This document shows positions 12,303-32,633 of a stretch of 44,169 nt of DNA, piece after piece (position 1 is the stretch's first letter; each line of letters begins with the position of its first letter). Below the pieces are notes generated by a model. That model made no database searches. It was not told the origin of the DNA and saw only the letters and a list, made by a program, of their open reading frames with translations. The stretch covers positions 1 to 44,169 of the forward strand of contig PBPM01000049.1 of NCBI GenBank assembly GCA_002724635.1. The letters run 5' to 3'. The position numbers were made by a program, and so were the translations under genes. Source of the DNA: Rhodospirillaceae bacterium. Lineage in GTDB: Bacteria; Pseudomonadota; Alphaproteobacteria; UBA6615.

Positions 12303-12698
12303 CTAGTCCGCCTTTGCGTCTTCCTCGTCGAGCACCTTGCGCGCGACGCGGAAGGCCTCCATGCCGCAAGGCGCGCCGCAATACATAGTGATCTGCAGGA
12401 GCGCCTCGCGCAGTTCCTCGCGGGTCAGCCCGTTGTTGATGGCGCCTCGGAAATGCCCCTCAAACTCGTTCATCCGCCCGAGCGCCGCAAGCATGCCGAG
12501 ATTGAGCAGGCTCCGCTGCTGACGGGTGAGCCCGTCGCGGCCCCACACCGCGCCCCAGCCCATCTCGGTGATGAACTGTTCCATGAAGTCGCGGTTGAAG
12601 TCGTCGAGATCCGTCATAGAGGCGTCGACGCGTTCGTCGCCCATCACCTCGCGGCGAATCCGCTCGCCCCTCGCATACAGATCCTTGTCGATCATCAA
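12303..12698 (-). CDS. carboxymuconolactone decarboxylase family protein (PcaC-like)
   Basis: A 131-residue member of the CMD family, close to 4-carboxymuconolactone decarboxylase in layout: RIRREVMGDERVDAS, DFNRDFMEQFITEMGWGAVWGRDGL, RQQRSLLNLGMLAALGR, and the active-site helix HFRGAINNGLTREELREALLQITMYCGAPCG. Classical PcaC removes CO2 from 4-carboxymuconolactone in the protocatechuate branch of the beta-ketoadipate pathway. No other pca gene is in the window, so a relative acting on another ring-fission product is equally possible. The start ATG at 12698 overlaps the stop of the upstream glutathionyl-hydroquinone reductase (ATGA), showing translational coupling in one operon. Confidence 0.88.
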   Translation of the reverse strand: MMIDKDLYARGERIRREVMGDERVDASMTDLDDFNRDFMEQFITEMGWGAVWGRDGLTRQQRSLLNLGMLAALGRMNEFEGHFRGAINNGLTREELREALLQITMYCGAPCGMEAFRVARKVLDEEDAKAD

Positions 12699-13717
12699 TC
12701 GTCTCCCTCGCCGGCCGCCGGGAACCGGTCCCGGTCGTGCGGCGCTGCGTAGAAGCCTTCTTGGCCCTCGGGGCCGATCGGGACTATCCCGTTCGGGTTC
12801 ACCCGCTCAATGCCGTAATAGTTCATCTTCGCGTAGTCGAACGAGAAGGTCTCGGCGATACCCGGGATCTGGTAAAGCTCACGAGTATAGTTGGTCAGGT
12901 TCGGATAGTCGGCAATCCGCCGGATATTGCACTTGAAGGCACCGACATAGCAGGCGTCGAACCGGATCAGGGTGACCCACAGCCGCCAGTCCGCCTCGGT
13001 CAGCAGGTCGCCGACCAGGTAGCGCTGGGTCGAGAGCCGATCCTCGAGATCGTCGAGGGTCTCGAAAAGCGCGACCACCGCCTCCTCATAGGCCTGCTGG
13101 GAGGAGGCGAAGCCGGCGCGGTACACGCCGTTGTTCACCCTGTGGTAGACGCGCTCGTTGATCGCGTCGATGTCGGCACGCAGGTCAGCAGGATAGTAAT
13201 CCTGGGTCACGTTGGTGAAGGCGTCAAACGCGCCATTGAACATGCGGATGATCTCGGAGGATTCGTTGTTCACCACCTGGCCCGTCTGCTTGTCCCAAAG
13301 AGTAGGCACCGTGACCTTGCCGGTATAGTCGGCGTTAGAGGCGGTGTAGGCCTCGTGCAGATGCGCGAAACCGTTCACTTGGTCGGGCCCGCAGTTGGGG
13401 AAATCCGGATTGTCGGCATAGGTCCAGCCCTGCTGATGACGGCCCGGCTGGGCCATGGACACGGTGATGGCGCTGTCGAGCCCCTTGATCGCGCGAAAGA
13501 TCAGCGTGCGGTGGGCCCAGGGACAGGTGTGCGACAGATAGAGGTGATATCGTCCGGGCTCAGCGGCGAACCCACCCTCGCCCGTCGGTCCCGGGCTACC
13601 ATCCGCCGTGATCCAGCTGCGGAACTGGCTTTCCGAACGCCGGAATTTTCCATCCTCCGCGACTTCCCGCGCCGTGGCGTCATTGTCGAGCCAGGCGCCG
13701 TCGAGCAGCATTCCCAT
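12695..13717 (-). CDS. glutathionyl-hydroquinone reductase (omega/xi-class GST)
   Basis: This 340-residue GST-fold enzyme reduces glutathionyl-hydroquinones, releasing the hydroquinone and GSSG. The catalytic Cys65 sits in LSHTCPWAHRTL, followed by the family features ADNPDFPNCGPDQVNGF, VTVPTLWDKQTGQVVNNESSEIIRMFN, the C-terminal helical domain with LTEADWRLWVTLIRFDACYVGAFKCN, and PNGIVPIGP. Relatives (PcpF, YqjG/EcmB type) rescue dead-end glutathione adducts formed during aromatic or chloroaromatic breakdown. It starts with ATG 13717 after TAGGAGAG. It lies between the VOC protein (upstream) and the PcaC-like gene (downstream, overlapping by 4 bases), consistent with a quinone/aromatic-handling operon. 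Confidence 0.93.
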   Translation of the reverse strand: MGMLLDGAWLDNDATAREVAEDGKFRRSESQFRSWITADGSPGPTGEGGFAAEPGRYHLYLSHTCPWAHRTLIFRAIKGLDSAITVSMAQPGRHQQGWTYADNPDFPNCGPDQVNGFAHLHEAYTASNADYTGKVTVPTLWDKQTGQVVNNESSEIIRMFNGAFDAFTNVTQDYYPADLRADIDAINERVYHRVNNGVYRAGFASSQQAYEEAVVALFETLDDLEDRLSTQRYLVGDLLTEADWRLWVTLIRFDACYVGAFKCNIRRIADYPNLTNYTRELYQIPGIAETFSFDYAKMNYYGIERVNPNGIVPIGPEGQEGFYAAPHDRDRFPAAGEGDD

Positions 13718-13747
13718 TTATCTCTCCTAGTGCGGCGTCGCACCGCG

Positions 13748-14308
13748 CTACTCCTGCAGAGGCTTCTTGAGTTCGGATTCCGGCTCGCCCGCATGGAACC
13801 GCGCGGCCAGTTCGTCCATGTCGATGGTTACGCCGATCGGCTCGCGATCGAAAGCGCCGGTTGCAAACCATTCGTTGAGGGCTGCGACAGTCTCGAAATT
13901 ATCGGTCTGGAGTTCGACCGCGTTGCCGTCGGGATCGTGATAGTAGAGCGATGTCGTCGGGCCATGATTGATCTGCCGATAGGGCTTGATCCCGAATTCC
14001 TTGAGCCGTTCATAAATCGCGATTAGGTCGGCGAGCGAATGATAGGTATAGGCGAAATGGGCCATCCCCAGCGTGTTCGGCACATGGTCATCTAAGTCGT
14101 CACGCTGGATGACCGCGACACGATGATGCTCGTCATCATAGGTAAGGAACGACAACCCCTTGGAATCCGCGGTGATCCGTGCACCCAGAACCCTGCAGTA
14201 CCAGTCCACCATCTCGGGTCGGTTCTTCGTGTAGAGAACGATATGGGCAAAATAGGCCGGGCTCGGGGTCTCATCCGGCTCGGGCACCTGCGCGTAGGCC
14301 TCTGACAT
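13748..14308 (-). CDS. VOC-family (extradiol dioxygenase-like / glyoxalase-fold) protein
   Basis: A 186-residue single vicinal-oxygen-chelate protein. Candidate metal ligands are His22 (FAHIVLYT), His84 (GMAHFAYTY) and Glu132 (GNAVELQTD); YYHDPDGNAVEL is typical of type I extradiol dioxygenase relatives. The known roles of such proteins range from ring cleavage of catechols to isomerase or glyoxalase chemistry, and the exact reaction cannot be assigned. Length is shorter than classical two-domain catechol 2,3-dioxygenases (about 290-300). It is the first gene of the minus-strand set VOC - hydroquinone reductase - PcaC-like, 31 bases upstream of the reductase. It diverges from the acyl-CoA dehydrogenase across about 150 bases that should hold both promoters. 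Confidence 0.85.
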   Translation of the reverse strand: MSEAYAQVPEPDETPSPAYFAHIVLYTKNRPEMVDWYCRVLGARITADSKGLSFLTYDDEHHRVAVIQRDDLDDHVPNTLGMAHFAYTYHSLADLIAIYERLKEFGIKPYRQINHGPTTSLYYHDPDGNAVELQTDNFETVAALNEWFATGAFDREPIGVTIDMDELAARFHAGEPESELKKPLQE

Positions 14309-14459
14309 CGGGCAGTCCTCTTTGATCGATCAAGTCGGCGAATACTAGCAGAGGGTGCGGCGATACACAGCCTCGCCTTACAACCCGGTCATTCACACAT
14401 AGCCTCGGCAGGCTCAGCCGGATATAACCGGGGCTTCCGAACCCGCAGGACATGGCACG

Positions 14460-15617
14460 ATGGCCCTCGACCCCGAAACACTCGACCAGCTGCTCGACAC
14501 GGTGCGCCGCTTCGTGCGCGAGCGGCTCGTACCGCACGAGGCCGAGGTTGCGGAAAATGACGCAGTGCCGCCCGAGATCATCGCGGAGATGCGCGATCTC
14601 GGCCTGTTCGGTCTCTCGATCCCCAACGCCCATGGCGGGCTCGGCCTCTCAGTCTCCGACGAGGTCCGCATAGTCCACGAGCTCGGCTGGACCTCGCCCG
14701 CCTTCCGGTCGGTGTTCGGCACTAATGTTGGCATCGGCTCTCAGGGCATCGTTATCGACGGGACCGACGAGCAGAAGACTCAGTGGCTGCCGCGCCTAGC
14801 GAGCGGCGAGATTATCGCGTCGTTCGCCCTGACCGAGCCCGAGGCGGGATCCGATGCGGGCTCGCTGCGCACGTCGGCGCGACGCGACGGCGACGAATAT
14901 GTGCTGAACGGCACCAAGCGCTACATCACGAACGCACCCCATGCGGGCATCTTCACCGTAATGGCCCGAACCGACCCCAACACGCCCGGCGCGCACGGCG
15001 TCTCTGCCTTCATCGTCGAGCGGAACAGCCCGGGCCTGTCGGTCGGGCCGCACCACAGAAAGATGGGCCAGCAGGGCGCCCACACTGCAGACGTGGTGTT
15101 CGAGGACTGCCGGGTGCCCGCCGCCAACCTCATCGGCGGTGTTGCGGGCAAAGGTTTCAAGACCGCCATGAAGGTCCTCGACCGAGGCCGACTGCACATG
15201 GGTGCGATCGCGACAGGCATCGCCGAACGGTTGATCGACGAAAGCGTGGGTTACGCGAGCGAACGCCAGCAGTTCGGCAAGCCGATCGGCGAGTTCCAGC
15301 TTGTTCAGGCGATGCTCGCCGATAGCCGCACTGAGGCCTATGCCGGCCGGACCATGGTTGCGGACGCGGCTCGGCGCTTCGATGCGGGCGAGGACATTGT
15401 CACCGAGGCAGCCTGCTGCAAGCTCTTCTGCACCGAGATGGCCGGCCGGGTCGCCGACCGGGCGGTACAGATCTTCGGAGGCGCTGGTTACATGGCCGAG
15501 TACCCGATAGAACGCTTCTACCGAGACGTTCGCCTACTGCGCATCTACGAGGGCACGTCGCAAATCCAACAAATCGTGATTGCACGCAAGATGTTGCGCG
15601 CGGCCGCAAACCGCTAA
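14460..15617 (+). CDS. acyl-CoA dehydrogenase
   Basis: A 385-residue flavoprotein that introduces a 2,3-double bond into an acyl-CoA. Visible are the FAD/substrate region IIASFALTEPEAGSDAGSLRTSA, YVLNGTKRYITNAPHAG, the C-terminal RQQFGKPIGEFQLVQAMLAD, QIFGGAGYMAEYPIERFYRDVRLLRIYEGT, and the catalytic Glu of IYEGT. It starts with ATG 14460 after AGGA; an ATG at 14452 is in another frame. It is followed 34 bases later by an FAH-family hydrolase, probably as an operon, and diverges from the VOC gene. The pairing suggests beta-oxidation-like processing of an acid from ring cleavage. Substrate chain and specificity are unknown. Confidence 0.93.
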   Translation: MALDPETLDQLLDTVRRFVRERLVPHEAEVAENDAVPPEIIAEMRDLGLFGLSIPNAHGGLGLSVSDEVRIVHELGWTSPAFRSVFGTNVGIGSQGIVIDGTDEQKTQWLPRLASGEIIASFALTEPEAGSDAGSLRTSARRDGDEYVLNGTKRYITNAPHAGIFTVMARTDPNTPGAHGVSAFIVERNSPGLSVGPHHRKMGQQGAHTADVVFEDCRVPAANLIGGVAGKGFKTAMKVLDRGRLHMGAIATGIAERLIDESVGYASERQQFGKPIGEFQLVQAMLADSRTEAYAGRTMVADAARRFDAGEDIVTEAACCKLFCTEMAGRVADRAVQIFGGAGYMAEYPIERFYRDVRLLRIYEGTSQIQQIVIARKMLRAAANR

Positions 15618-15651
15618 ACAACAGCAATCAAACCATCAAACGGGGGACACC

Positions 15652-16530
15652 GTGAAGTTCATCAGCTATCGAGTGGTTAATCGGGAATCCTGGGGAACCT
15701 ACGCGGCGGACGGCGGCGTGATTGACCTGGGCGCGGAATTCGGGACCACGATCCCAACACTGCGTGACTATCTGGCGGCCAACGAAGCAGCCAAGGCAAA
15801 GGTGGCTGAATATGTGAACACCGGCTTCGGCAGTACATCCGGCAAGGCCTCGGACTTCTCCGCCTCCGACATCACGCTGCTGGAGCCGATCCGCAACCCC
15901 GAAAAGATCATCTGCGTCGGCTGGAACTATCGCGAGCACGCTAAGGAGGCGGGTATCGAGCTGCCCGATCACCCCACCCTGTTCGCGCGCTGGTCCAACA
16001 GCCATGTACCCCACGAGCATCCGATCCTCCTGCCGAGGGAATCCGAGAAGTTTGACTATGAGGGCGAGTTGGCGGCGATCATCGGCAGGCCTGCGCGCCG
16101 GGTGTCGGGGGCCGACGCGCTCAGCTATGTGGGCGGCTATTCAATATACAACGACGCCACTGTGCGCGACTATCAGCGCCACTCCTCCCAGTATATGCCG
16201 GGCAAGAACTTCTTCCAAGCGGGCGCTTTCGGGCCGTGCATGGTGTCGGCGGAAGAGGTCCCCGAGCCTGCCGAGCTCACGCTGGAAACGCGGCTAAACG
16301 GCGAGGTGGTGCAGCACACCGGGATCGACGACCTGATCTTCTCGATCCCGAAACTGATCGCGTACATCTCGAGCTTCACAGAACTGGTGCCCGGCGACGT
16401 GATCGCCACCGGTACCCCGAGCGGCGCGGGCCTCGGACGCACACCGCCCCTGTGGATGAAGGACGGGGACACGATCGAGGTCGAAGTCTCGAAGGTGGGA
16501 ATCCTGACCAACCCGGTCAAAGCTGACTGA
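15652..16530 (+). CDS. fumarylacetoacetate hydrolase (FAH) family protein
   Basis: A 292-residue FAH-fold protein with a short N-terminal domain and a C-terminal catalytic domain. The core shows KIICVGWNYREHAKE, YEGELAAIIG (two metal-binding Glu), GYSIYNDATVRDYQ (metal-binding Asp) and DVIATGTPSGAG. Family members hydrolyse C-C bonds of acylpyruvates or decarboxylate or hydrate 2-oxo acids from aromatic meta-cleavage. The start is GTG 15652 after CGGGGGA; upstream in-frame codons overlap the acyl-CoA dehydrogenase. It shares a transcript with that gene. The convergent alcohol dehydrogenase ends 31 bases away. Confidence 0.92.
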   Translation: MKFISYRVVNRESWGTYAADGGVIDLGAEFGTTIPTLRDYLAANEAAKAKVAEYVNTGFGSTSGKASDFSASDITLLEPIRNPEKIICVGWNYREHAKEAGIELPDHPTLFARWSNSHVPHEHPILLPRESEKFDYEGELAAIIGRPARRVSGADALSYVGGYSIYNDATVRDYQRHSSQYMPGKNFFQAGAFGPCMVSAEEVPEPAELTLETRLNGEVVQHTGIDDLIFSIPKLIAYISSFTELVPGDVIATGTPSGAGLGRTPPLWMKDGDTIEVEVSKVGILTNPVKAD

Positions 16531-18408: not shown

Positions 18409-19245
18409 TTAGTCTCGGATCTTCTCGACCCACTCCTTTACGTTGGACAACCACGGGGCCGCTACATCTCCGCAAGCATAAGAAGCGCCGAGATGATCAC
18501 AGTTATACAAGCAGCAGGTCTCGACGGCGGCGCCTGCGGCGCGCAATGCGTCTGCCATTGCCCCCGCCTGTGTGATCAAATGGGGGAAATCTGCATCGCC
18601 CCAAGTCATCAGGAACGGCGGCGTGTTAGCGATGTTGTGAATGGGGCTAGCATCCCGGTCATTAGCCACCTTATCACCAAGAAACCGGGGCCGGGCTGGC
18701 ATGCCGCCGGCCTCGGTAAAATCATATACGCCTGACACCGGCAGCACCCCGCGGATAACATCTTCAGGAACGCCCGCCGCCTGTTGCCAGTCGTCACGTA
18801 CCGCCAGCCAAGTCGCTTGGTGCCCGCCCGCCGAGTGGCCGCCAACGAAGATGCGTTCGCGATCACCCCCATGCGCCGCGATGTTCGCATGCACCCACTT
18901 GATGCCTGCAGCCGCATCCTCGACACCGGCGGGCCAAATCACAGCCGGCGCAAGACGATAGCCCATGCTGACGAAGGTAATACCGGCGGCTGTCAGCGGT
19001 GGCGCCATGAAGGCCAGCCATTCCTTGTAACCGTTAGTCCAGCCGCCGCCATGCATGAAAGCGATCACGTCCCCGGTGGGCTTCGGCGCCGAAAATACCG
19101 CGACCTCCTGATAGGGATCGTCGCCATAAGCGAAGGATTCACCACAAACGCCGGCGCCCAGTTCTAGGGTCCGGATATGATACCTGACGCCAATCTCTGA
19201 GAACGGTTCCTGCGGCGGATAGTTATCGATGTCGCGAAGGCCCAT
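18409..19245 (-). CDS. alpha/beta hydrolase, kynurenine formamidase/HSL-like
   Basis: A 278-residue alpha/beta hydrolase. It has the oxyanion motif HGGGW at 65-69, the nucleophile Ser138 in GGHSAGG, the acid Asp in TWGDADFP and the base His in YNCDHLGAS. The HGGGW...GHSAGG layout is that of arylformamidases (KynB type) and related esterases. Its ATG at 19245 overlaps the stop of the NicX-like dioxygenase (TGATG), so the two are translationally coupled. In nicotinate breakdown the product of NicX, N-formylmaleamate, is deformylated by an alpha/beta hydrolase (NicD). I therefore infer a deformylase role here, though this protein is not obviously a NicD orthologue. Confidence 0.83.
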   Translation of the reverse strand: MGLRDIDNYPPQEPFSEIGVRYHIRTLELGAGVCGESFAYGDDPYQEVAVFSAPKPTGDVIAFMHGGGWTNGYKEWLAFMAPPLTAAGITFVSMGYRLAPAVIWPAGVEDAAAGIKWVHANIAAHGGDRERIFVGGHSAGGHQATWLAVRDDWQQAAGVPEDVIRGVLPVSGVYDFTEAGGMPARPRFLGDKVANDRDASPIHNIANTPPFLMTWGDADFPHLITQAGAMADALRAAGAAVETCCLYNCDHLGASYACGDVAAPWLSNVKEWVEKIRD

Positions 19246-20327
19246 CAGCGTTCCTCGCGTTCGACAATCATCTTCTCGTCGACGATCCCTCCGCGGTCGA
19301 TCACGACCTTATTGTCGAGGATAACGGTGCAGTCGCGCATCGGCACATCATAATGGCCATTCGTGCTTCGCGAACCGCCGCCCTGAGTATTGGGACCGGT
19401 GGAGAACAGGAAGTTGCCCGGGAATGTGCGGGCCGAGGCGTGCGAGCGCTCCGGGCTGTCGCCATGGAGCGCGATATTGTACCAGCGCGACTGCGGGTTC
19501 ATTCCCCATCCCAGATGGGAGACAGCATAGGGGTCGAGATCGTCTTCCGAGACCTTGTTGTCGTCGAGCCAATCGGTCATCAGCTTAGCGTCCAGTCCAC
19601 CCTCGATTTTGCGGATGAAGCCGTCACGAATCTCGAGGCGCACCTCGTCATGGACGTAGCGACAATAGGGCAGGATCACGATATCGCCGGGAGACATCAC
19701 GACGGTACCGTTGGCCGAACCTTCGTCGGGGAATGTATGAATGTGACCCACGCCCCACTGGTCAAAATGCCCGGGCTCGTCGGAATATCCCCACTGGCTC
19801 ATCACAGGAAAATCGCCACGGGCATAGGTGAGGTCGGTGCCTGCATCACTCAGGACCCGCACCTCCTTCGTCTTCGTGTAAAGCGCGTCAGCGTATTTCA
19901 CCGCCTCCTTAAGTCCCTTGGGCGCCAAAAGCAGCTCGAGATCGTCGGGCGCATCGATGATCATAAGAAAGCGGGTTCCCGTCCCCATCACCTCGCGCAG
20001 CCAGCTGGTGAATAGAGGAATATGCAACGCGACCACGATGTCGGCTGCCTTGAGCGCTTCAAGCATGCCGCTGATCCGGCCAATTGTGTCGACCCCCACC
20101 TTGGTCCATGACGGGATCATGTTCACGCGCATCTCGTAACAATCCGCGCCCAGCTCGTCCGCTGCGGCGAACGCGGCCTCTACATATTCCGTGCGGGTGG
20201 TGACATCTGAGAGCAGCGCCACCGTCTCGCCCTTCTTGACGTTGGACATTCGAAACTGCTTTAGGAACAAACTCGGAATCTTCCCGGAGTTGATCTCCTG
20301 ATGGCGCACGGCGGCGGGCGTTCTCAT
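19245..20327 (-). CDS. 2,5-dihydroxypyridine 5,6-dioxygenase-like protein (NicX family)
   Basis: This 360-residue protein matches the NicX family, Fe(II) dioxygenases related to M29 aminopeptidases that open 2,5-dihydroxypyridine to N-formylmaleamate. Matching blocks are GDFPVMSQWGYSDEPGHFDQW, FPDEGSANGTVV, GDIVILPY, IRDGFIRKIEGG, SHLGWGMNPQSRW and GNFLFSTGPNT. The iron ligands His271, His325 and Asp327 align with the reported His265/His318/Asp320 of Pseudomonas putida NicX in order and spacing. It starts with ATG 20327 after GAGAGAT. It is the first gene of a two-gene operon with the formamidase-like hydrolase and diverges from the DHPON-hydrolase-like gene at 20501. Family is firm; the native substrate might be another N-heterocycle. 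Confidence 0.88.
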   Translation of the reverse strand: MRTPAAVRHQEINSGKIPSLFLKQFRMSNVKKGETVALLSDVTTRTEYVEAAFAAADELGADCYEMRVNMIPSWTKVGVDTIGRISGMLEALKAADIVVALHIPLFTSWLREVMGTGTRFLMIIDAPDDLELLLAPKGLKEAVKYADALYTKTKEVRVLSDAGTDLTYARGDFPVMSQWGYSDEPGHFDQWGVGHIHTFPDEGSANGTVVMSPGDIVILPYCRYVHDEVRLEIRDGFIRKIEGGLDAKLMTDWLDDNKVSEDDLDPYAVSHLGWGMNPQSRWYNIALHGDSPERSHASARTFPGNFLFSTGPNTQGGGSRSTNGHYDVPMRDCTVILDNKVVIDRGGIVDEKMIVEREER

Positions 20328-20500
20328 GATCTAATCTCTCTTGTTGGAAGGGCACTAATGGAATTCATCATGCTAGCCGATCTTCCCGGATCGCGCGAGA
20401 CACCCGCATTCACAAGCCGCATGGATTTTCGCGGAGACATGCGCCTGTTCGTGTGGTGAGATATTTTACGCAAAATCAGAATTTTTTAGGGAGAGAGATA

Positions 20501-21739
20501 ATGATGCAGGCATTCACCGAGCAGAAAATGAGACGTTTCGCCGAACAGCGCTGGATTCTGGACGCAATCATTTCGACAGTCGGGATGGAGTGGGACCAGC
20601 CCCGCCTCGGCTACACAATGTATCCCTGCGGCCCGGACGCCATCGGGGATTTCCGCACCGTCGGAATGCGCACTAAGAAGTTCGCAGACATGCACCGGGA
20701 GTTCGCAGGCGCCGCCAAGCGGCGGGAGATCAAGGCCAAGGCGTTCGAGGCCGAGGAACGTCTCGTCTCGGCGCGCGAGAGCTACTTCATCGCCTCACTT
20801 CTATACTCTGCCGCGCGCTGGCCGATCTTCGAAGCGAATGCTTTGCACAAGGACTACAACCAGCGCATGGTGGACTGCTACGATAAGTACATCGAGTATG
20901 CCCCCCGGCCGATCGAACGTGTTGAGATTCCTTTTGGCGACGGCGTCCTTCCCGGATACCTAGCACTGCCCCATAAACCCGCCCCGGACGAAAAATTCGC
21001 CTGCGCTATAGGTATCGACGGCATGGACGGCTCTAAGGAGATCATGTGTTCGATGTATGGCGATAAGATGCTAGAGCGCGGCCTCGCGAGCTTCGTCTAT
21101 GACGGGCCGGGACAGGGCGAGTGTCCGGTCAACGGCGTATACGTCACCAAGGACAATCACATGGAGGCAGCACAGGCAGTCTACGACTGGCTGATCCAGC
21201 ACCCGCATATCGACAAGGACCGGCTGGTCATCTTTGGCATCAGCTTTGGATCCTTCTTCGGCGCACAGGCCGCCGCACAGCTCGGCGACAAGATCAAGGG
21301 TGCGGCGCTCTCCTTCGTGTGCCACGAGCCGGGCTGTTACACGATCTTCAACATGGCCGCGCCGACCTACAAGCTCCGCTTCATGTTTATGGCTAATTAT
21401 GATGACGAGGCCGAATTCGACGAGTTCATCAGCGGGTTCTCACTCGACCCGATCACCAACCACATCAAGTGCCCGATTCTGATTCAAGCCGGACAGGATG
21501 AGGAACTTAGCCCCATCGAATGCTCGGAGGAGTTCGCCCGGAAGCTGAACGTGCCGCGCAAGCTGGTCGCATATGAGGGCGAGCGCCACGCAATCGGTGG
21601 CGGTTCGGCTGCCTATCTGGGTGAGAACTGGTATACGATGCTAGCTGATTGGTGTGTAGACCGGATCAATGACAAGCCCGCGCCGAACGAGTCCGTTCTT
21701 ATAAACGCGCTCGGCCAAGCTGAGGCGACGTCCTTCTAG
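20501..21739 (+). CDS. alpha/beta hydrolase, 2,6-dihydropseudooxynicotine hydrolase-like (copy 2)
   Basis: A 412-residue hydrolase with a long N-terminal helical cap (about 1-140) and a catalytic domain carrying GIDGMDGSKE, YDGPGQGECP, nucleophile Ser248 in GISFGS, acid Asp333 in AGQDEE and base His363 in GERHAIG. It belongs to the FrsA/DHPON-hydrolase group, some members of which cleave C-C bonds of diketones, but it differs from copy 1 in the elbow and active-site His region. It starts with ATG 20501 after AGGGAGAGAG; an upstream GTG in frame (20453) lacks a ribosome site. It shares a 173-base divergent promoter region with the nicX-like operon, suggesting joint control. Substrate unknown. 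Confidence 0.88.
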   Translation: MMQAFTEQKMRRFAEQRWILDAIISTVGMEWDQPRLGYTMYPCGPDAIGDFRTVGMRTKKFADMHREFAGAAKRREIKAKAFEAEERLVSARESYFIASLLYSAARWPIFEANALHKDYNQRMVDCYDKYIEYAPRPIERVEIPFGDGVLPGYLALPHKPAPDEKFACAIGIDGMDGSKEIMCSMYGDKMLERGLASFVYDGPGQGECPVNGVYVTKDNHMEAAQAVYDWLIQHPHIDKDRLVIFGISFGSFFGAQAAAQLGDKIKGAALSFVCHEPGCYTIFNMAAPTYKLRFMFMANYDDEAEFDEFISGFSLDPITNHIKCPILIQAGQDEELSPIECSEEFARKLNVPRKLVAYEGERHAIGGGSAAYLGENWYTMLADWCVDRINDKPAPNESVLINALGQAEATSF

Positions 21740-23546: not shown

Positions 23547-24365
23547 TTAGTCTTTGTCGAAGAAGGCAAAGACCCGGGTCTCGAGGCTCTCGCGCGGCAC
23601 GGCGTCGGCGGGCGCGGTGGGATCATCGAAGGAGGTGTGCAGCGCGTAGCGTGCACGCCCATCCTTCGCGGTGTCGTAGTTCTTGATCAGTATCGCCTCG
23701 CCCGGTGTCATACACGGGAAGTAATACCATTTGTTTTGTGCGTCATAGGAAGCGTGTCGGGTCTGGCCGACCCGGTTGTAAGCGCGCCTTTCCACCGTGT
23801 GCAGATGAACATCGTCCACGCTGTCCCAGCTGCACAGGGCCAGCGGCCATTCTTCAATCGCGCCTGCGCGTGAGCGCCAGACATTGACGATTGCGAAACG
23901 TTTCGACAGTAGCGTCTCCGCCTCGTCACCCATCACATCCTCGACCCGCTTGCGGGCCGACCAGTCGGTGTAGTCGGTGTGTGCCGCATTGGCCGGGTCG
24001 CGGGCATTGTGTGCCTCGCGCAGAGCCTGAGACGAGGACCGGCGGGTATGATCGAAGACGAGAGCACGGCTGGCGCCCGTGTGGGCACAAACCAGCGCTT
24101 CGGCCTCGGCGTTGTAGATCGACACCAGCTGATCATCGTCCTGAAAATCGGTGACCGCGGTCTCGTGTGCGACGAACGCAAAGCCTTCGTGATCCAGCGT
24201 GAAATCGTGGGACAAGAGGCGCGCATTGCGCACAGTCATTGAGTGAAACTCACGCTCACCCTCGAAGTTAGTCCGCTCGCCGGCTACATTCGACTGATAG
24301 AAGACCGGCAGCTTACCGGTGTTCACCAAATAGCCAATGGGCGCTTTGATACTTTCCGTTGCCAT
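23547..24365 (-). CDS. CmcJ/NvfI-family oxidoreductase
   Basis: A 272-residue protein of the CmcJ/NvfI (AsaB/GA4-desaturase-like) family. Indicators are the N-terminal GKLPVFYQSNVAGERTNFEG, VRNARLLSHDFTLDHEGFAFVAHETAVTDF, RFAIVNVWRS, and the C-terminal YFPCMTPGEAILIKNYD with LHTSFDDPTAP and ESLETRVFAFFD. Members are thought to be non-haem iron, 2-oxoglutarate-type enzymes, though few have known reactions. Family recognition is by pattern; His residues likely to bind metal occur in HASYDAQ and LHTSFDDP. It starts with ATG 24365 and is monocistronic. Its place at the edge of the catabolic region suggests a hydroxylation or desaturation step. Confidence 0.82.
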   Translation of the reverse strand: MATESIKAPIGYLVNTGKLPVFYQSNVAGERTNFEGEREFHSMTVRNARLLSHDFTLDHEGFAFVAHETAVTDFQDDDQLVSIYNAEAEALVCAHTGASRALVFDHTRRSSSQALREAHNARDPANAAHTDYTDWSARKRVEDVMGDEAETLLSKRFAIVNVWRSRAGAIEEWPLALCSWDSVDDVHLHTVERRAYNRVGQTRHASYDAQNKWYYFPCMTPGEAILIKNYDTAKDGRARYALHTSFDDPTAPADAVPRESLETRVFAFFDKD

Positions 24366-27012: not shown

Positions 27013-29331
27013 CTAAGCCGTGTCACGGCTTCGGATGTCGTCGACCGCCACCAGGATTGCCTCCGGCGTCGCCGGCGCATCGAGCCTCGGCAAGTGGCGG
27101 TTATCCGAGATACGCGAGACCGCGTCGCGGATCGCCAGCCAGACCGAGATCGCCAGCATCAGCGGCGGCTCGCCCACAGCCTTGGATCGGAACACGGTCG
27201 GTACACGGTTGGGCGCGTCTTCGAGAATGTGCACGTTGAACACCGGCGGCACGTCGCGGCTGCCTGGGATTTTGTAGGTGGAGGGACCGTGGGTGAGGAG
27301 CTGACCCTTATCGTTCCAGACCAGCTCCTCCGATGTGAGCCAGCCCTGACCTTGGACGAAGGCCCCCTCTATCTGCCCGAGGTCGACCGCCGGGTTGAGG
27401 GAGTTGCCGCAGTCCTGAAGTATGTCGGCCCGCAGGACACGGCTCTCGCCGGTCAGGGTGTCGATCACCACCTCCGCGATCGCCGCACCGTAGGTGAAAT
27501 AATAGAAGGGGTTGCCGACCAAGGCCTTAGCGTCCCAGTGCAGCCCCGGCGTCGAATAGAAGCCCGCGGCCGAGAGTTGGACGCGGCGGTTGTAGGTCTC
27601 CGCGGCCAGCTCGGCAAAGGACATACTTTCATTGTTGGCATAGACCCGGTTCTGGCGAAACTCGATTTGCTCGGGCGCGGTGTCAAAGATCTTGGCTGCT
27701 ACCCCGGTCATGCGTTCCTTTATGGTGGTGGCGGCGTTAAAGGCCGCCATGCCGTTCAGGTCCGATCCCGCAGAGGCCGCCGTCGCCGAGGTATTAGGTA
27801 CCTTGTCCGTCCGGGTCGCGGATATCTTCACATTGTCCATATCGATCTGGAACACCGAGGCCACGATCTGGGCGACCTTGGTGAACAGGCCCTGCCCCAT
27901 CTCGGTACCACCATGGTTCAGGTGTACACTGCCGTCGGCATAGACATGCACCAGCGCGCCGGCCTGATTGAGCTTGGGCGTATTAAACGAGATACCGAAC
28001 TTCACCGGCATCAGCGCGAGCCCCTTTTTGAGTATCTCGTGGGAGGCGTTGAAGTCATCGACCGCCTCGGTCATAGCCTCGAAGTCGACCTCCCTGCGTA
28101 GCCGGTCGGTCAGCTCAACGATAATATTATCCTGCACCGTCTGCTGATAGGGCGTCACGTTGCGGTCGTCGATGCCGTAATAGTTCACCGCGCGAACCGC
28201 ATCGAGGGTTATATCGAGCTCGCGGGCGATATGCTCGAGTATCGCCTCGATGACGATCATGCCCTGCGGACCGCCGAAGCCGCGGAACGCGGTGTTCGAG
28301 ACCGTGTTGGTCTTGCAGGGGTAGCCCCGAAGCTTCGCGTTCGGCAGGTAGTAGCAATTATCCACATGGCACATTGCGCGAGCCAGCACGCCGGGGCTCA
28401 GGTCGGCGACATTGCCAGAGCGCATGCCCATTAGAATGTCGACGCCGGCGATCCGTCCAGTCGCGTCAAAGCCCACCTCGTAGCGGAACAGGAAGTCGTG
28501 CCGCTTGCCTGTCACGATCATATCGTCGTCGCGGCGCAGGCGCAGTTTGGCTGGGCGGCCAGTCATGTCGGCCATCAGAGCGGCTATCGCGGCGATGATG
28601 GTCGGTTGGCTCTCCTTGCCGCCGAAGCCGCCGCCCATGCGCCGTACCTCGACGGTCACGGCGTTGGACGGGATGCCGAGCGTATGGGCGACCCCGTGCT
28701 GCACTTCGCTGGGATGCTGGGTCGAGCTGAAGATGTCGAGGTCACCGTCGTCGCGCGGCACCGCCAGCGCAACGTTGCTCTCGAGGTAGAAGTGATCCTG
28801 CCCGCCACAGCGCAACTCGCCCTCGATACGGTGCGGCGCGCCAGCGATCGCTGTCTCGGGATCGCCGAAGGTCATAATCTGCGGCGGATAGGTATATTGC
28901 CCGCTTTCGAGTGCATCCTCGATCTCAAGGACCGGCGTCAGTTCCTCATAGGTGACCACGACCGCCGCGGCCGCGGCGCGGGCCTGGTCGTATGAGTCGG
29001 CGGCAACCGCCGCCACAGGCGCGCCGGCATATTCCACAACCGCATCCGCGAGGACCGGTTCGTCGTCGAATATCGGGCCGATATCGTTATGCCCCGGGAT
29101 GTCGGCCGCAGTCACGATCCCGCGCACGCCGTCCATCGCAAGTGCCACCGACGTGTCAACCGAGACGATCCGCGCATGGGCGTGCGGGCTGGTCACCAGG
29201 ACAATCTCCTGAGTACCGGGTAGGAGCGGCATGTCGTCTATATAGCGTGCCGATCCTGTCACATGGCCGCGCGCACTATCGTGGCGGACGCTCGATTGGA
29301 CTGCACCACGGATGCCGTCGTCGGCATTCAT
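27013..29331 (-). CDS. xdhB: xanthine dehydrogenase molybdopterin-binding subunit
   Basis: A 772-residue molybdenum subunit that oxidises hypoxanthine/xanthine to urate. Key features are the N-terminal HDSARGHVTGSARYIDDMP, GGQDHFYLE (substrate-contact Glu), RRMGGGFGGKE, the substrate Arg region TAFRGFGGPQGM, NHGGTEMGQG, and the C-terminal base Glu in SKAVGEPPLML. The protein is complete, starting with ATG 29331 and overlapping xdhA's stop by four bases (ATGA), so the two subunits are translationally coupled. Comparison with the Rhodobacter-type XdhA/XdhB split supports the naming. No xdhC insertion chaperone follows. The paired guanine deaminase on the other side of xdhA fits purine catabolism. 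Confidence 0.95.
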   Translation of the reverse strand: MNADDGIRGAVQSSVRHDSARGHVTGSARYIDDMPLLPGTQEIVLVTSPHAHARIVSVDTSVALAMDGVRGIVTAADIPGHNDIGPIFDDEPVLADAVVEYAGAPVAAVAADSYDQARAAAAAVVVTYEELTPVLEIEDALESGQYTYPPQIMTFGDPETAIAGAPHRIEGELRCGGQDHFYLESNVALAVPRDDGDLDIFSSTQHPSEVQHGVAHTLGIPSNAVTVEVRRMGGGFGGKESQPTIIAAIAALMADMTGRPAKLRLRRDDDMIVTGKRHDFLFRYEVGFDATGRIAGVDILMGMRSGNVADLSPGVLARAMCHVDNCYYLPNAKLRGYPCKTNTVSNTAFRGFGGPQGMIVIEAILEHIARELDITLDAVRAVNYYGIDDRNVTPYQQTVQDNIIVELTDRLRREVDFEAMTEAVDDFNASHEILKKGLALMPVKFGISFNTPKLNQAGALVHVYADGSVHLNHGGTEMGQGLFTKVAQIVASVFQIDMDNVKISATRTDKVPNTSATAASAGSDLNGMAAFNAATTIKERMTGVAAKIFDTAPEQIEFRQNRVYANNESMSFAELAAETYNRRVQLSAAGFYSTPGLHWDAKALVGNPFYYFTYGAAIAEVVIDTLTGESRVLRADILQDCGNSLNPAVDLGQIEGAFVQGQGWLTSEELVWNDKGQLLTHGPSTYKIPGSRDVPPVFNVHILEDAPNRVPTVFRSKAVGEPPLMLAISVWLAIRDAVSRISDNRHLPRLDAPATPEAILVAVDDIRSRDTA

Positions 29332-30749
29332 AGTGTGGTCACCTCGATCTTGTCGGCGCCCTCAAGATCGCGATGAAGGCGTACGAATAGGTTACCGGCG
29401 ACCCGCAGGCGGTAGTTTGCCGTCGCCCGGTGGTCGTCGATGGGCCGGAAGTCTTGCCGTGCCGCCTCGCCCGCACGCCGCGCCGCATCCTCGTTCCAGA
29501 TTTGCCCGACCAGCGCCGCCTCGCAGGCCGGGGCCCGCTTGGGCGTGGCGGCCATGCCGCCGAACGCGATCCGCGCCTCGGTGACGGTGCCGTTGTCGAT
29601 GGTCAGGCGGAACGCCCCAACCACGGCCGAGATGTCCTGATCGTAGCGCTTGGAGACCTTGTACGTACGAAAGACCTCATTGTCCGCGAGCTTCGGGATG
29701 GTCAGAGACGCGATCACCTCGTCCGCTGCAAGCTCGGTCTTGCGGTAGTCTATAAAGAAGTCCTCAAGCGCGATGTCGCGCGGACCGGTCGGGCCGTGCA
29801 GGGTCAGGGTAGTGTCGAGCGCGATGAGGCAGGGCGGTGTATCGCCGATGGGCGAGGCGTTGCCGATGTTGCCGCCGAAGGTGCCAACATTGCGGATCTG
29901 GCGCGAGCCGATCCGACGGATCAGCGCCGCGAAGGACGGGTAGAGTTCTTCAATCCGGGGAAGCGCTTCGGAATAGGTGACCGCGGCACCGATGCGGATA
30001 CCGGCGTCGCCCTCCTCGATTCGTTTCAGCTGGGCGACGTTCTGGGTGAAGATCGTCACTGGGAACGCCCTGCGGTCCTTACTGAAGCTCAGCCCCAGGT
30101 CCGTGCCGCCAGACAGGAGCGGCGCGTCTGGATGTGCAACGCGCGCGGCGACGAGAGCGTCGAGGCTCGTGGGCGCGAGGAATGCCTGTCCCTGCGCCTC
30201 GTAGGTCTCACCCGCCGCCGGCGCCGGGGTTGCCATGACCGGCGAGGCGTCGCCCGGCGCGGCGATCGCTGCATGGGCCGCCGCGACGATGGAACGATAG
30301 CCGGTGCAGCGGCACAAGTTGCCTGCCAACGCATCGTGGATGACCGCGTCGCTCACCAGCTCGTCGCCGTGGCGCAGCGCATGCAGTGCGATCACGAAGC
30401 CAGGCGTACAGAAGCCGCACTGGGTGCCGTCCTCGTCGACAATCGCGGCCTGAACCGCTTCGAGTTCGCCGGCTTTCTCCGACAACCCCTCGACCGTAGT
30501 CAGCCGCGCGCCGTCGAGCTGGCCTATGGTCAGCAGGCAGGAGTTCACGGCTTCGACCCGGTCAGAGCCGTTGCGCACAAGTACGACAGAACAGGCCCCG
30601 CAGTCGCCCTCGGCGCAGCCCTCCTTGGTCCCCGTGAGGCCGGCATCCTCCCGCAGATATTCGAGCACCGTGCGCGTCGGCGACACCAACGCCTCGCTGC
30701 GCGCCTCGCCATTCAGTACAAAATTGATTGCCAAGATCCGATCCGTCAC
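29328..30749 (-). CDS. xdhA: xanthine dehydrogenase small subunit (2Fe-2S and FAD)
   Basis: A 473-residue electron-transfer subunit. The N-terminal plant-type 2Fe-2S domain has GCAEGDCGACSVVL with a further Cys; the second 2Fe-2S site has CGFCTPGFV and GNLCRCTGYRSI. The FAD-binding domain shows LLSGGTDLGL, IGSRQIRNVGTFGGNIGNASPIGDTPP, and a CO-dehydrogenase-flavoprotein C-terminal domain. Electrons from the Mo centre in XdhB pass through these to NAD+. It starts with ATG 30749 and is the first gene of the xdhAB operon. It faces guaD (30863) across 113 bases, a likely shared regulatory region. All cofactor Cys are present. Confidence 0.95.
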   Translation of the reverse strand: MTDRILAINFVLNGEARSEALVSPTRTVLEYLREDAGLTGTKEGCAEGDCGACSVVLVRNGSDRVEAVNSCLLTIGQLDGARLTTVEGLSEKAGELEAVQAAIVDEDGTQCGFCTPGFVIALHALRHGDELVSDAVIHDALAGNLCRCTGYRSIVAAAHAAIAAPGDASPVMATPAPAAGETYEAQGQAFLAPTSLDALVAARVAHPDAPLLSGGTDLGLSFSKDRRAFPVTIFTQNVAQLKRIEEGDAGIRIGAAVTYSEALPRIEELYPSFAALIRRIGSRQIRNVGTFGGNIGNASPIGDTPPCLIALDTTLTLHGPTGPRDIALEDFFIDYRKTELAADEVIASLTIPKLADNEVFRTYKVSKRYDQDISAVVGAFRLTIDNGTVTEARIAFGGMAATPKRAPACEAALVGQIWNEDAARRAGEAARQDFRPIDDHRATANYRLRVAGNLFVRLHRDLEGADKIEVTTL

Positions 30750-31424: not shown

Positions 31425-32633
31425 CTACTCCCACCAATGCAGCGCATCCTGGCCCTCGCCTTGAGTACCGTTGGGCCCGCTTCCGCCCGTTCGTAGGTAC
31501 ATCTTGCGGTCGTGACCGGCACCATATTTCCCAGCTAGCGCATCGACCAACCAATCGTGGCACATCATGTGATGGTCGTGGCGTGTCTGCTCCTCGCCGA
31601 ACATCCGTGCCTGATGGTAGGTGTCCTCGTAGACCCAGAGTTCCTTAGGCGCCTGAATTTTATCATAGAATTCGTATACCAGCTCGACGGGGCTTCGGGA
31701 ATCATACTCGCCCACGGTCATCAACACCGGGCACTTGATGTCGCGCTCGCGGCCCTCGACAGTCATCTGAGAGACCCAGCCGTCAAGTTCCTCTTCGCTG
31801 GACGCCCCCATAAGATAGCCAAAAAGCTGTTTATAGCGAGGCGAGAAGGTGTCAAGGATGAAATACTTGTCGAGCGCCGACGTCCATGGCGCGGCCACCG
31901 CCTTGATCAGCGGATGGCCCGAGGCCGCCACCTCGAGGCCCCAGTGAGCACCCATCGATAGCGCATAGACTACTATCTTCTCGGCATCGACCTCGTCGCG
32001 CTCAGCCATATGCTCCGCTATAGCGAGCACCGCGCGCTCGTAGTTTGTCGGCGTAAGCTTGAGCCCGCGCAGGTTCGACATCCCCTGCCCCGGCCCGTCG
32101 ATGACCAGCATGTGCATGCCGCGCAGATGCGCCTGCATGATGCGCGGATCGGGATAGTTTTCCTTGGTCATGTCGCAGCCGGGAATGAAAATCACCAGCG
32201 GCGCGCTTGGTTTGCCCGGCAGCATATGGAAGTTGCACTGCAGATCGCCACCCTCGAACGGCACCTCGAGCCGCTCGATCGGATAGGGCGCGTGCTCGAT
32301 CACCTTTTCATAGTTGGCGATGCAGCGGCCGTGCAGGTAGCGTTTCTCGTCATTAGTCTCGAGCACTGGATGCTGGGCCAGCGCGAAAGTGGACGACGCT
32401 CGGTAGTAAAGCTCAAACGCGGTCGCCGAATGTCCGGCCGCCTCCTCCTCCGCAGCTACGCGCTCGAGCCGCTGGCCGATGCGGCCTAGATGCTTGGAGA
32501 TCTGGGCGTGGCTCTTAACCGATTTGGGCAGCGGCCGGCCCTCCTCGTCCCAGTGGAAAACCTTACCGGTCTCCTGTACGAGATAGTCAAAAATCCACTG
32601 CTGGCGATCGCGATCGAGGCGTGGCGTGCGCAT
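31425..32633 (-). CDS. alpha/beta hydrolase, 2,6-dihydropseudooxynicotine hydrolase-like (copy 3)
   Basis: A 402-residue hydrolase with a helical cap (about 1-120) and a catalytic domain showing FIPGCDMTKENYP, IDGPGQGMSNL, nucleophile Ser226 in ALSMGA, acid Asp311 in VGEYDSRSP and candidate base His340 in EDTYHQARM. It belongs to the same FrsA/DHPON-hydrolase group as the genes at 62 and 20501 but is clearly divergent from both. A 30-residue Gly-rich tail follows the last conserved helix. It starts with ATG 32633. It is convergent with guaD and is the last GC-rich gene before the AT-richer accessory stretch. Substrate unknown. Confidence 0.87.
   Translation of the reverse strand: MRTPRLDRDRQQWIFDYLVQETGKVFHWDEEGRPLPKSVKSHAQISKHLGRIGQRLERVAAEEEAAGHSATAFELYYRASSTFALAQHPVLETNDEKRYLHGRCIANYEKVIEHAPYPIERLEVPFEGGDLQCNFHMLPGKPSAPLVIFIPGCDMTKENYPDPRIMQAHLRGMHMLVIDGPGQGMSNLRGLKLTPTNYERAVLAIAEHMAERDEVDAEKIVVYALSMGAHWGLEVAASGHPLIKAVAAPWTSALDKYFILDTFSPRYKQLFGYLMGASSEEELDGWVSQMTVEGRERDIKCPVLMTVGEYDSRSPVELVYEFYDKIQAPKELWVYEDTYHQARMFGEEQTRHDHHMMCHDWLVDALAGKYGAGHDRKMYLRTGGSGPNGTQGEGQDALHWWE

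Follow-up and report, generated by a model that had tools for sequence, protein, structure and literature searches.

NicX, the 2,5-dihydroxypyridine 5,6-dioxygenase of Pseudomonas putida KT2440 (PDB 7cn3 and 7cup), offers the closest described comparison for the locus considered here, and the accessible text of the report on it (PMC7910607) sets out which residues matter for its substrate. Glu177 and His189 contact 2,5-dihydroxypyridine; the E177A and H189A variants retain 2.7% and 6.9% of activity, respectively, the double variant and H105A have none, and H105F and H105M are active. Specificity is stated there to depend strongly on His105, His189, and Glu177. Two other systems provide points of reference. 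On pAO1, the gene for the DHPON hydrolase of the nicotine pathway (2jbw) adjoins the molybdenum (Mo) hydroxylase gene kdhL, according to the available part of PMC6122326. In Agrobacterium sp. DW-1, the excerpted text of PMC6525221 proposes a route that begins with alpha-hydroxylation of 3-hydroxypyridine and proceeds via 2,5-dihydroxypyridine.

Here we analyze a window of 44,169 nucleotides (positions 1 to 44,169 of contig PBPM01000049.1, assembly GCA_002724635.1) from an alphaproteobacterium listed as Rhodospirillaceae bacterium, in which a gene for a NicX-family protein, an overlapping alpha/beta hydrolase gene, and a divergent DHPON-hydrolase-like gene lie together (Table 1). The source assembly totals 2.95 Mb in 137 contigs, with completeness given as 100% and contamination as 6.15%, and contains one NicX-family match. 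The reading we favor, with confidence that stops somewhat short of even, is that this trio is a catabolic module that would open a hydroxylated N-heteroaromatic ring, probably not that of 2,5-dihydroxypyridine, all of its reactions being predicted ones.

Table 1. Position and predicted nature of the trio and of the gap between its divergent genes
Feature	Coordinates	Strand	Basis
NicX-family protein, 360 aa, predicted Fe(II) ring-cleaving dioxygenase	19245..20327	-	PDB 7cn3 match, ligand mapping, model
Alpha/beta hydrolase (278 aa) of the Abhydrolase_3/BD-FAE type, with the ring-opened product as predicted substrate	18409..19245	-	
DHPON-hydrolase-like alpha/beta hydrolase, 412 aa, divergent, predicted C-C hydrolase	20501..21739	+	2jbw best (profile and fold search)
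Intergenic stretch between the divergent NicX-like and DHPON-like genes, presumed site of both promoters	20328..20500	.	Sequence, ten-gap alignment

The NicX-like protein and its subfamily

The three open reading frames lie where a first-pass annotation of this DNA had placed them, with the NicX-like and hydrolase genes on the minus strand and the DHPON-like gene on the plus strand, and the TGATG in which the stop of the NicX-like gene overlaps the start of the hydrolase gene can be read directly. In a sequence search of the PDB (E <= 1), the NicX-like protein matches NicX 7cn3 at E 6.7e-64, with 122 of 332 aligned residues identical, and all other matches have E values of at least 0.02. Its AlphaFold2 model (mean pLDDT 87.2) places 7cn3 and 7cup at the top of the fold search, with template-modeling (TM) scores of 0.88-0.89 by query and 0.91 by target. 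The annotation had claimed the three iron ligands of NicX (His265, His318, and Asp320), and these are indeed present as His271, His325, and Asp327; the fourth, Ser302, is likewise kept as Ser309, and so are Arg293 and Leu104. An M29-type aminopeptidase is a candidate that we consider highly improbable and have set aside. M29 enzymes (4icq, 1zjc, 2ayi, and others) come next in the fold search, and several plasmid relatives are annotated as leucyl aminopeptidase, but the TM scores of 0.55-0.59 by query fall well below those for NicX, no protein other than NicX reaches an E value below 0.02, and the complete iron site of NicX is retained.

The window protein differs from NicX of KT2440 at His105, Glu177, His189, and Glu308, which are replaced by Phe106, Gln178, Gln190, and Gln315, respectively. 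The first three of these are the specificity-linked residues, and their replacement had been missed. The protein has the fold and iron ligands of the NicX dioxygenases, which turn 2,5-dihydroxypyridine into N-formylmaleamate, without the contacts made by Glu177 and His189. Since both contacts are replaced, 2,5-dihydroxypyridine, the substrate that the annotation implied, becomes the less likely one.

These changes extend beyond a single genome. Among 64 aligned NicX-family loci, we took those with at least 62% identity to the window protein as its subfamily (42 loci, some of which are one genome fetched twice). In NicX numbering, Phe105 and Gln177 are present in all 42, while residue 189 is His in 22 and Gln in 20; among the best 120 of 1833 homologues, Phe105 and Gln177 are present in every one, with His189 in 115 and Gln189 in five. 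Gln177 also occurs in four loci of less than 62% identity (L037, L042, L053, and L054). The NicX-type proteins of classical clusters, found on plasmids of Azospirillum ramasamyi and of Salipiger abyssi (the latter with LLM and flavin reductase genes), carry Leu, Phe, Glu, and His at positions 104, 105, 177, and 189. On these alignments, Gln177 is the distinguishing change and the NicX-like proteins form a distinct subfamily, the substrate of which is probably not 2,5-dihydroxypyridine. Sampling 385 genomes across the class gave NicX-family matches in 56, of which 15 are at or above 62% identity (five from the window's family and ten from outside it). Three further homologues at 45-49% identity (L017, L018, and L019) have Asn, Leu, Tyr, and Gln at the same four positions, another type of pocket; in L017 and L018, open reading frames that resemble Rieske oxygenases by eye lie within a few kilobases.

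The overlapping hydrolase

The hydrolase belongs to the Pfam families Abhydrolase_3 and BD-FAE. Across 19 aligned relatives, its Ser138, Asp219, and His251 never vary, and the HGGGW stretch is also kept save for one His. A "KynB-like" enzyme had been proposed here. An alpha/beta hydrolase with a match to kynurenine formamidase 4e11 (E 7e-16) is what we find, but the label is loose, given the Abhydrolase_3/BD-FAE assignment and the position of 4e11 at rank 42 among the best 60 of 89 profile matches. Its closest solved relatives in the PDB profile search are esterases, a result that counts against the favored reading, and by sequence the protein is not closest to the alpha/beta-type kynurenine formamidases. 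Nor does it share a subfamily with NicD; BLAST gave no match to NicD-type proteins at E <= 10. It resembles the N-formylmaleamate deformylase NicD in being an alpha/beta hydrolase that adjoins a NicX-family gene, whereas the Azospirillum NicD-type protein is of the Abhydrolase_1/6 type. We therefore infer the formamidase role from gene position and context, and not from the sequence of the hydrolase.

Gene context across genomes

The coupling of the NicX-like and hydrolase genes exceeds what chance would give: they are linked in all 28 genomes examined that have a subfamily gene. Within the window's family, we searched 24 genomes, including the source genome, and found the subfamily gene in 18 (in G023 just as a fragment where the contig ends); the NicX homologues of G009 and G016 are more distant, and four genomes have none. 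In all 18, the hydrolase match starts 2-8 bases past the NicX match, a gap that holds the stop codon, and in none of them does a CoxL-type gene lie between the two. By contrast, in all ten genomes outside the family, the hydrolase lies 3.7-4.2 kb from the NicX-like gene with a CoxL-type subunit between them. The loci outside the family at or above 62% identity number 11 (ten genomes and a contig, L013), with the operon-less L014 and L015 counted apart. CoxM, CoxS, CoxL, and the hydrolase follow in succession in all 11, and CoxG is found in 10 of the 11; counting the query locus L068, a LivK-type binding protein (at least 56% identity) and a TetR gene are each nearby in 8 of the 11. L014 and L015 have the NicX-like/hydrolase pair without the Mo operon, and in L015, a Rieske oxygenase alpha-type gene (1459-2778, benzoate 1,2-dioxygenase-like, below the cut-off) lies upstream of the pair in place of the operon. 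The more distant NicX homologue of G009 (L135, contig C23, 10171-14201, 52% identity) has a hydrolase of the same type, along with a RutC-family gene above the NCBIfam cut-off, a RutD-like gene below it, and a TetR gene; this arrangement resembles one for pyrimidine utilization, and no RutA is seen among the open reading frames listed.

The CoxL of the operon carries the motif AFRGFG (AYRGFG in one locus) together with GAKG-GE. Its nearest solved chain is the alpha subunit of 4-hydroxybenzoyl-CoA reductase, followed by aldehyde oxidoreductase, nicotinate dehydrogenase, and 6-hydroxypseudooxynicotine dehydrogenase. Carbon monoxide dehydrogenase, the motif of which we take to be different, was rejected as an identity in view of AFRGFG and these nearest chains. 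No orthologue of the operon was found in the window's family, where the best CoxL match in each of the 24 genomes has 32-38% identity, against at least 54% for the operon genes outside. In a tree of 45 rows (drawn from the 64 aligned loci and 7cn3, with duplicates and some distant rows omitted), the 17 rows of the family form a clade (100/100) within a 26-row clade (98/96), the other nine rows of which all bear the operon; the two remaining operon rows cluster with L014 and L015, and the tree tool warned of long branches among distant rows. Because the family nests within an operon-bearing clade, the Mo operon seems to be the older arrangement, and its loss in the family is probable. The front-end enzyme has probably been swapped there, and on the same tree, the change from His189 to Gln fits a single event inside the family.

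A possible ordinary 2,5-dihydroxypyridine route

Could this still be an ordinary 2,5-dihydroxypyridine route? In such a scheme, the protein would be a NicX that tolerates the substitutions, the hydrolase would take the place of NicD, and 2,5-dihydroxypyridine would be made elsewhere (for example, by alpha-hydroxylation of 3-hydroxypyridine, as proposed for DW-1). We consider this unlikely, while taking it seriously. The fold, iron ligands, and Arg293 are kept, and the DW-1 report, in its accessible part (PMC6525221), documents a route in which a single hydroxylation precedes the opening of the ring, which suits an operon with one Mo hydroxylase. Much of what weighs against a changed substrate also belongs here. 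Phe105 is not telling, because it is usual in the classical-cluster relatives and H105F NicX is active (PMC7910607, in the text available). Gln177 by itself does not rule out the classical route, judging from one such relative, L082 (47% identity to the Salipiger NicX): it has Phe, Gln, and Asn at positions 105, 177, and 189 and Leu for Arg293, and though Gln177-bearing, it lies in a gene cluster with monooxygenase, NicD-like, and NicF-like genes. For this reason, we treat Gln177 as a marker of the subfamily and not as proof of a different substrate. In addition, His189 is retained in the branch adjacent to the window's, and a Gln can still pair with a 2-pyridone. Set against the ordinary route are the near-abolition of NicX activity by E177A and H189A, variants to Ala rather than Gln (PMC7910607, same text), and the fixation of Gln177 in the subfamily.

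The classical genes also bear on this question, although less sharply. As had been claimed, nicCDEF is absent from the window: in tblastn searches, no homologues of the nicC-, nicD-, nicE-, or nicF-type genes of Azospirillum or Salipiger were found in it at E <= 1e-3, and the NicX-like gene is in this respect unlike nicX of KT2440, with no nicC/D/E/F-type gene beside it. The best matches in the source genome have 35% (NicC), 27% (NicE), and 44% (NicF) identity, and across the family genomes searched, NicE reaches 27-30% at best, which speaks against the ordinary route. However, the NicE search is a weak test, since G083, G129, and G362, positive-control genomes with a classical-type NicX, score little or no better, and the NicE and NicC searches, covering 17 genomes, are not decisive. 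The NicF-like gene of the source genome (G000:C35) is far from the trio, among genes that resemble hydantoinase genes by eye, and was not assigned to the pathway. Among the open-licence PMC matches listed, judged by titles and the starts of abstracts, we found no description of the subfamily or of the Mo operon, and a search for a link to homarine, judged likewise, returned no paper on such genes.

The divergent DHPON-hydrolase-like gene

The assignment of the divergent gene to the C-C hydrolase group known from nicotine breakdown holds up well. In the profile search (27 rows, two of them window paralogues), 2jbw comes first at E 4.4e-44, ahead of AntI, Yg1-type proteins, and FrsA; in a single-sequence search, Yg1 (4e-11) is just above 2jbw (1e-10). 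Foldseek, run with a model of pLDDT 86.7, puts four chains of 2jbw at the top, and the protein has the fold of the DHPON hydrolases with their helical N-terminal part. Of the DHPON hydrolase triad (Ser217, Asp300, and His329), the Ser and His align with Ser248 and His363, both invariant in our alignment. The proton carrier of DHPON hydrolase, the enzyme that cleaves 2,6-dihydroxypseudooxynicotine, is Glu248, a residue with no assignable position in the alignment. Unlike the pAO1 enzyme, to which it has about 21% identity, the window protein has Glu334 at the acid position, beside Asp333, and many relatives have Asp334. The gene most probably starts at ATG 20501, which is preceded by GGAGAGAG and is better than GTG 20453, giving 412 aa. 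In the gap that separates it from the NicX-like gene, a GATCGGCTAGCAT-like stretch occurs in five of ten aligned gaps and is altered in the others; it may be a promoter element or an operator. A conserved operator was not retained as a candidate, as this short stretch, common to some of the ten gaps, is all they share.

A DHPON-like gene (at least 82% identity) is divergently adjacent in 15 of the 18 family genomes; it is absent in G006, and contigs end nearby in G022 and G023. The proposed check on co-occurrence of the trio thus came out in favor within the family, with no counterpart in the ten genomes outside it. These data bring into view a scheme in which the NicX-hydrolase pair is one pathway and the DHPON-like gene a neighbor with an unrelated job, which we hold to be decidedly unlikely, more so than the ordinary route. 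In its favor, and to the detriment of a three-gene module, the pair occurs without the DHPON-like gene in G006 and in 10/10 outside genomes, none of which has a DHPON-like match at E <= 1e-30. In the sample of 385 genomes, 11 have a DHPON-like match at E <= 1e-60, four in the family and seven outside it at 38-55% identity; all seven are without the subfamily gene, and G150 alone among them has any NicX-family match. The surrounding region is, moreover, broadly syntenic across the family, so that adjacency within it is weaker evidence. What argues against an unrelated neighbor is that the spacing between the NicX-like and DHPON-like matches is held to 163-194 bp in all but two of 15 genomes (these two have 756 and 768 bp), while insertions separate other neighbors in several relatives. 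Next to the DHPON-like gene, some relatives carry an inserted gene for an LLM-type oxidoreductase or a flavin reductase (L002 1618-2742, L087 12320-13486, and L079 5105-5728).

The genomic settings of the window gene and its pAO1 counterpart differ, the former being divergent from a NicX-like gene and the latter beside a Mo hydroxylase gene. Of the 69 DHPON-like paralogues that the window's family has at E <= 1e-30, 12 have a listed Mo subunit no more than 6 kb away, where uniform placement would give 1.5; one of the 12 rests on the window XdhB, added by hand, and by eye the 12 make up about three distinct loci in related genomes.

Other features of the window

Three DHPON/FrsA-like hydrolase genes lie within 33 kb (62-1234, minus; 20501-21739, plus; and 31425-32633, minus), the last adjoining a deaminase gene and xdhAB. 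The nearby xdhAB (27013-30749) was rejected as the hydroxylase of the pathway, since each subunit scores above the curated NCBIfam cut-off for an ordinary xanthine dehydrogenase. Two further features are syntenic across many genomes of the family, namely a CmcJ/NvfI-family oxidoreductase gene (23547-24365, minus), above its NCBIfam cut-off, and a block at 12303-16530 of CMD-family, GST, glyoxalase-fold, acyl-CoA dehydrogenase, and FAA-hydrolase genes.

Proposed pathway

In the catabolic module that we favor, the DHPON-like enzyme of the window's family would begin by removing an acyl side chain from the ring, the NicX-family protein, as a predicted Fe(II) dioxygenase, would open the hydroxylated N-heteroaromatic ring, and the overlapping hydrolase would split the N-acyl (formyl) ring-opened product. 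In other Alphaproteobacteria, the Mo hydroxylase operon (CoxG-CoxM-CoxS-CoxL type) would prepare the ring by hydroxylation. The DHPON-like step is the weakest link of this scheme. The Mo-operon version would resemble the DW-1 pathway in having one ring hydroxylation followed by opening by an Fe(II) dioxygenase, differing in that the DW-1 pathway, per the available part of PMC6525221, passes through 2,5-dihydroxypyridine. The pAO1 pair of 6-hydroxypseudooxynicotine dehydrogenase (Mo) and DHPON hydrolase likewise joins a C-C hydrolase with a Mo hydroxylase on a pyridine ring, but as described in the accessible part of PMC6122326, it works without a NicX step and yields 2,6-dihydroxypyridine. The suggestion of a differently built N-heterocycle pathway is supported by the 28/28 linkage of the pair and the Mo operon between its genes outside the family; the full trio is confined to one family.

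It appears that the front end has changed around a retained ring-opening core, as the Mo operon orthologue was not found in the family and the DHPON-like gene adjoins the core instead. A broader and more tentative possibility is that a widespread alphaproteobacterial NicX clade was retuned, with Gln for Glu177, to another heterocycle in a pathway of Mo hydroxylase, NicX-like dioxygenase, and BD-FAE-type amide hydrolase, and that the window's family exchanged the Mo front end for a DHPON-type C-C hydrolase. The names "2,5-dihydroxypyridine 5,6-dioxygenase" and "leucyl aminopeptidase" given to relatives may mislead pathway prediction. The existence in nature of a subfamily in which the iron site is the same and the substrate contacts differ makes a second substrate, and the residues that select it, testable. 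If the retuned-clade reading is true, a new feed compound would enter the same ring-opening core in the window's family, by a pathway that is as yet undescribed.

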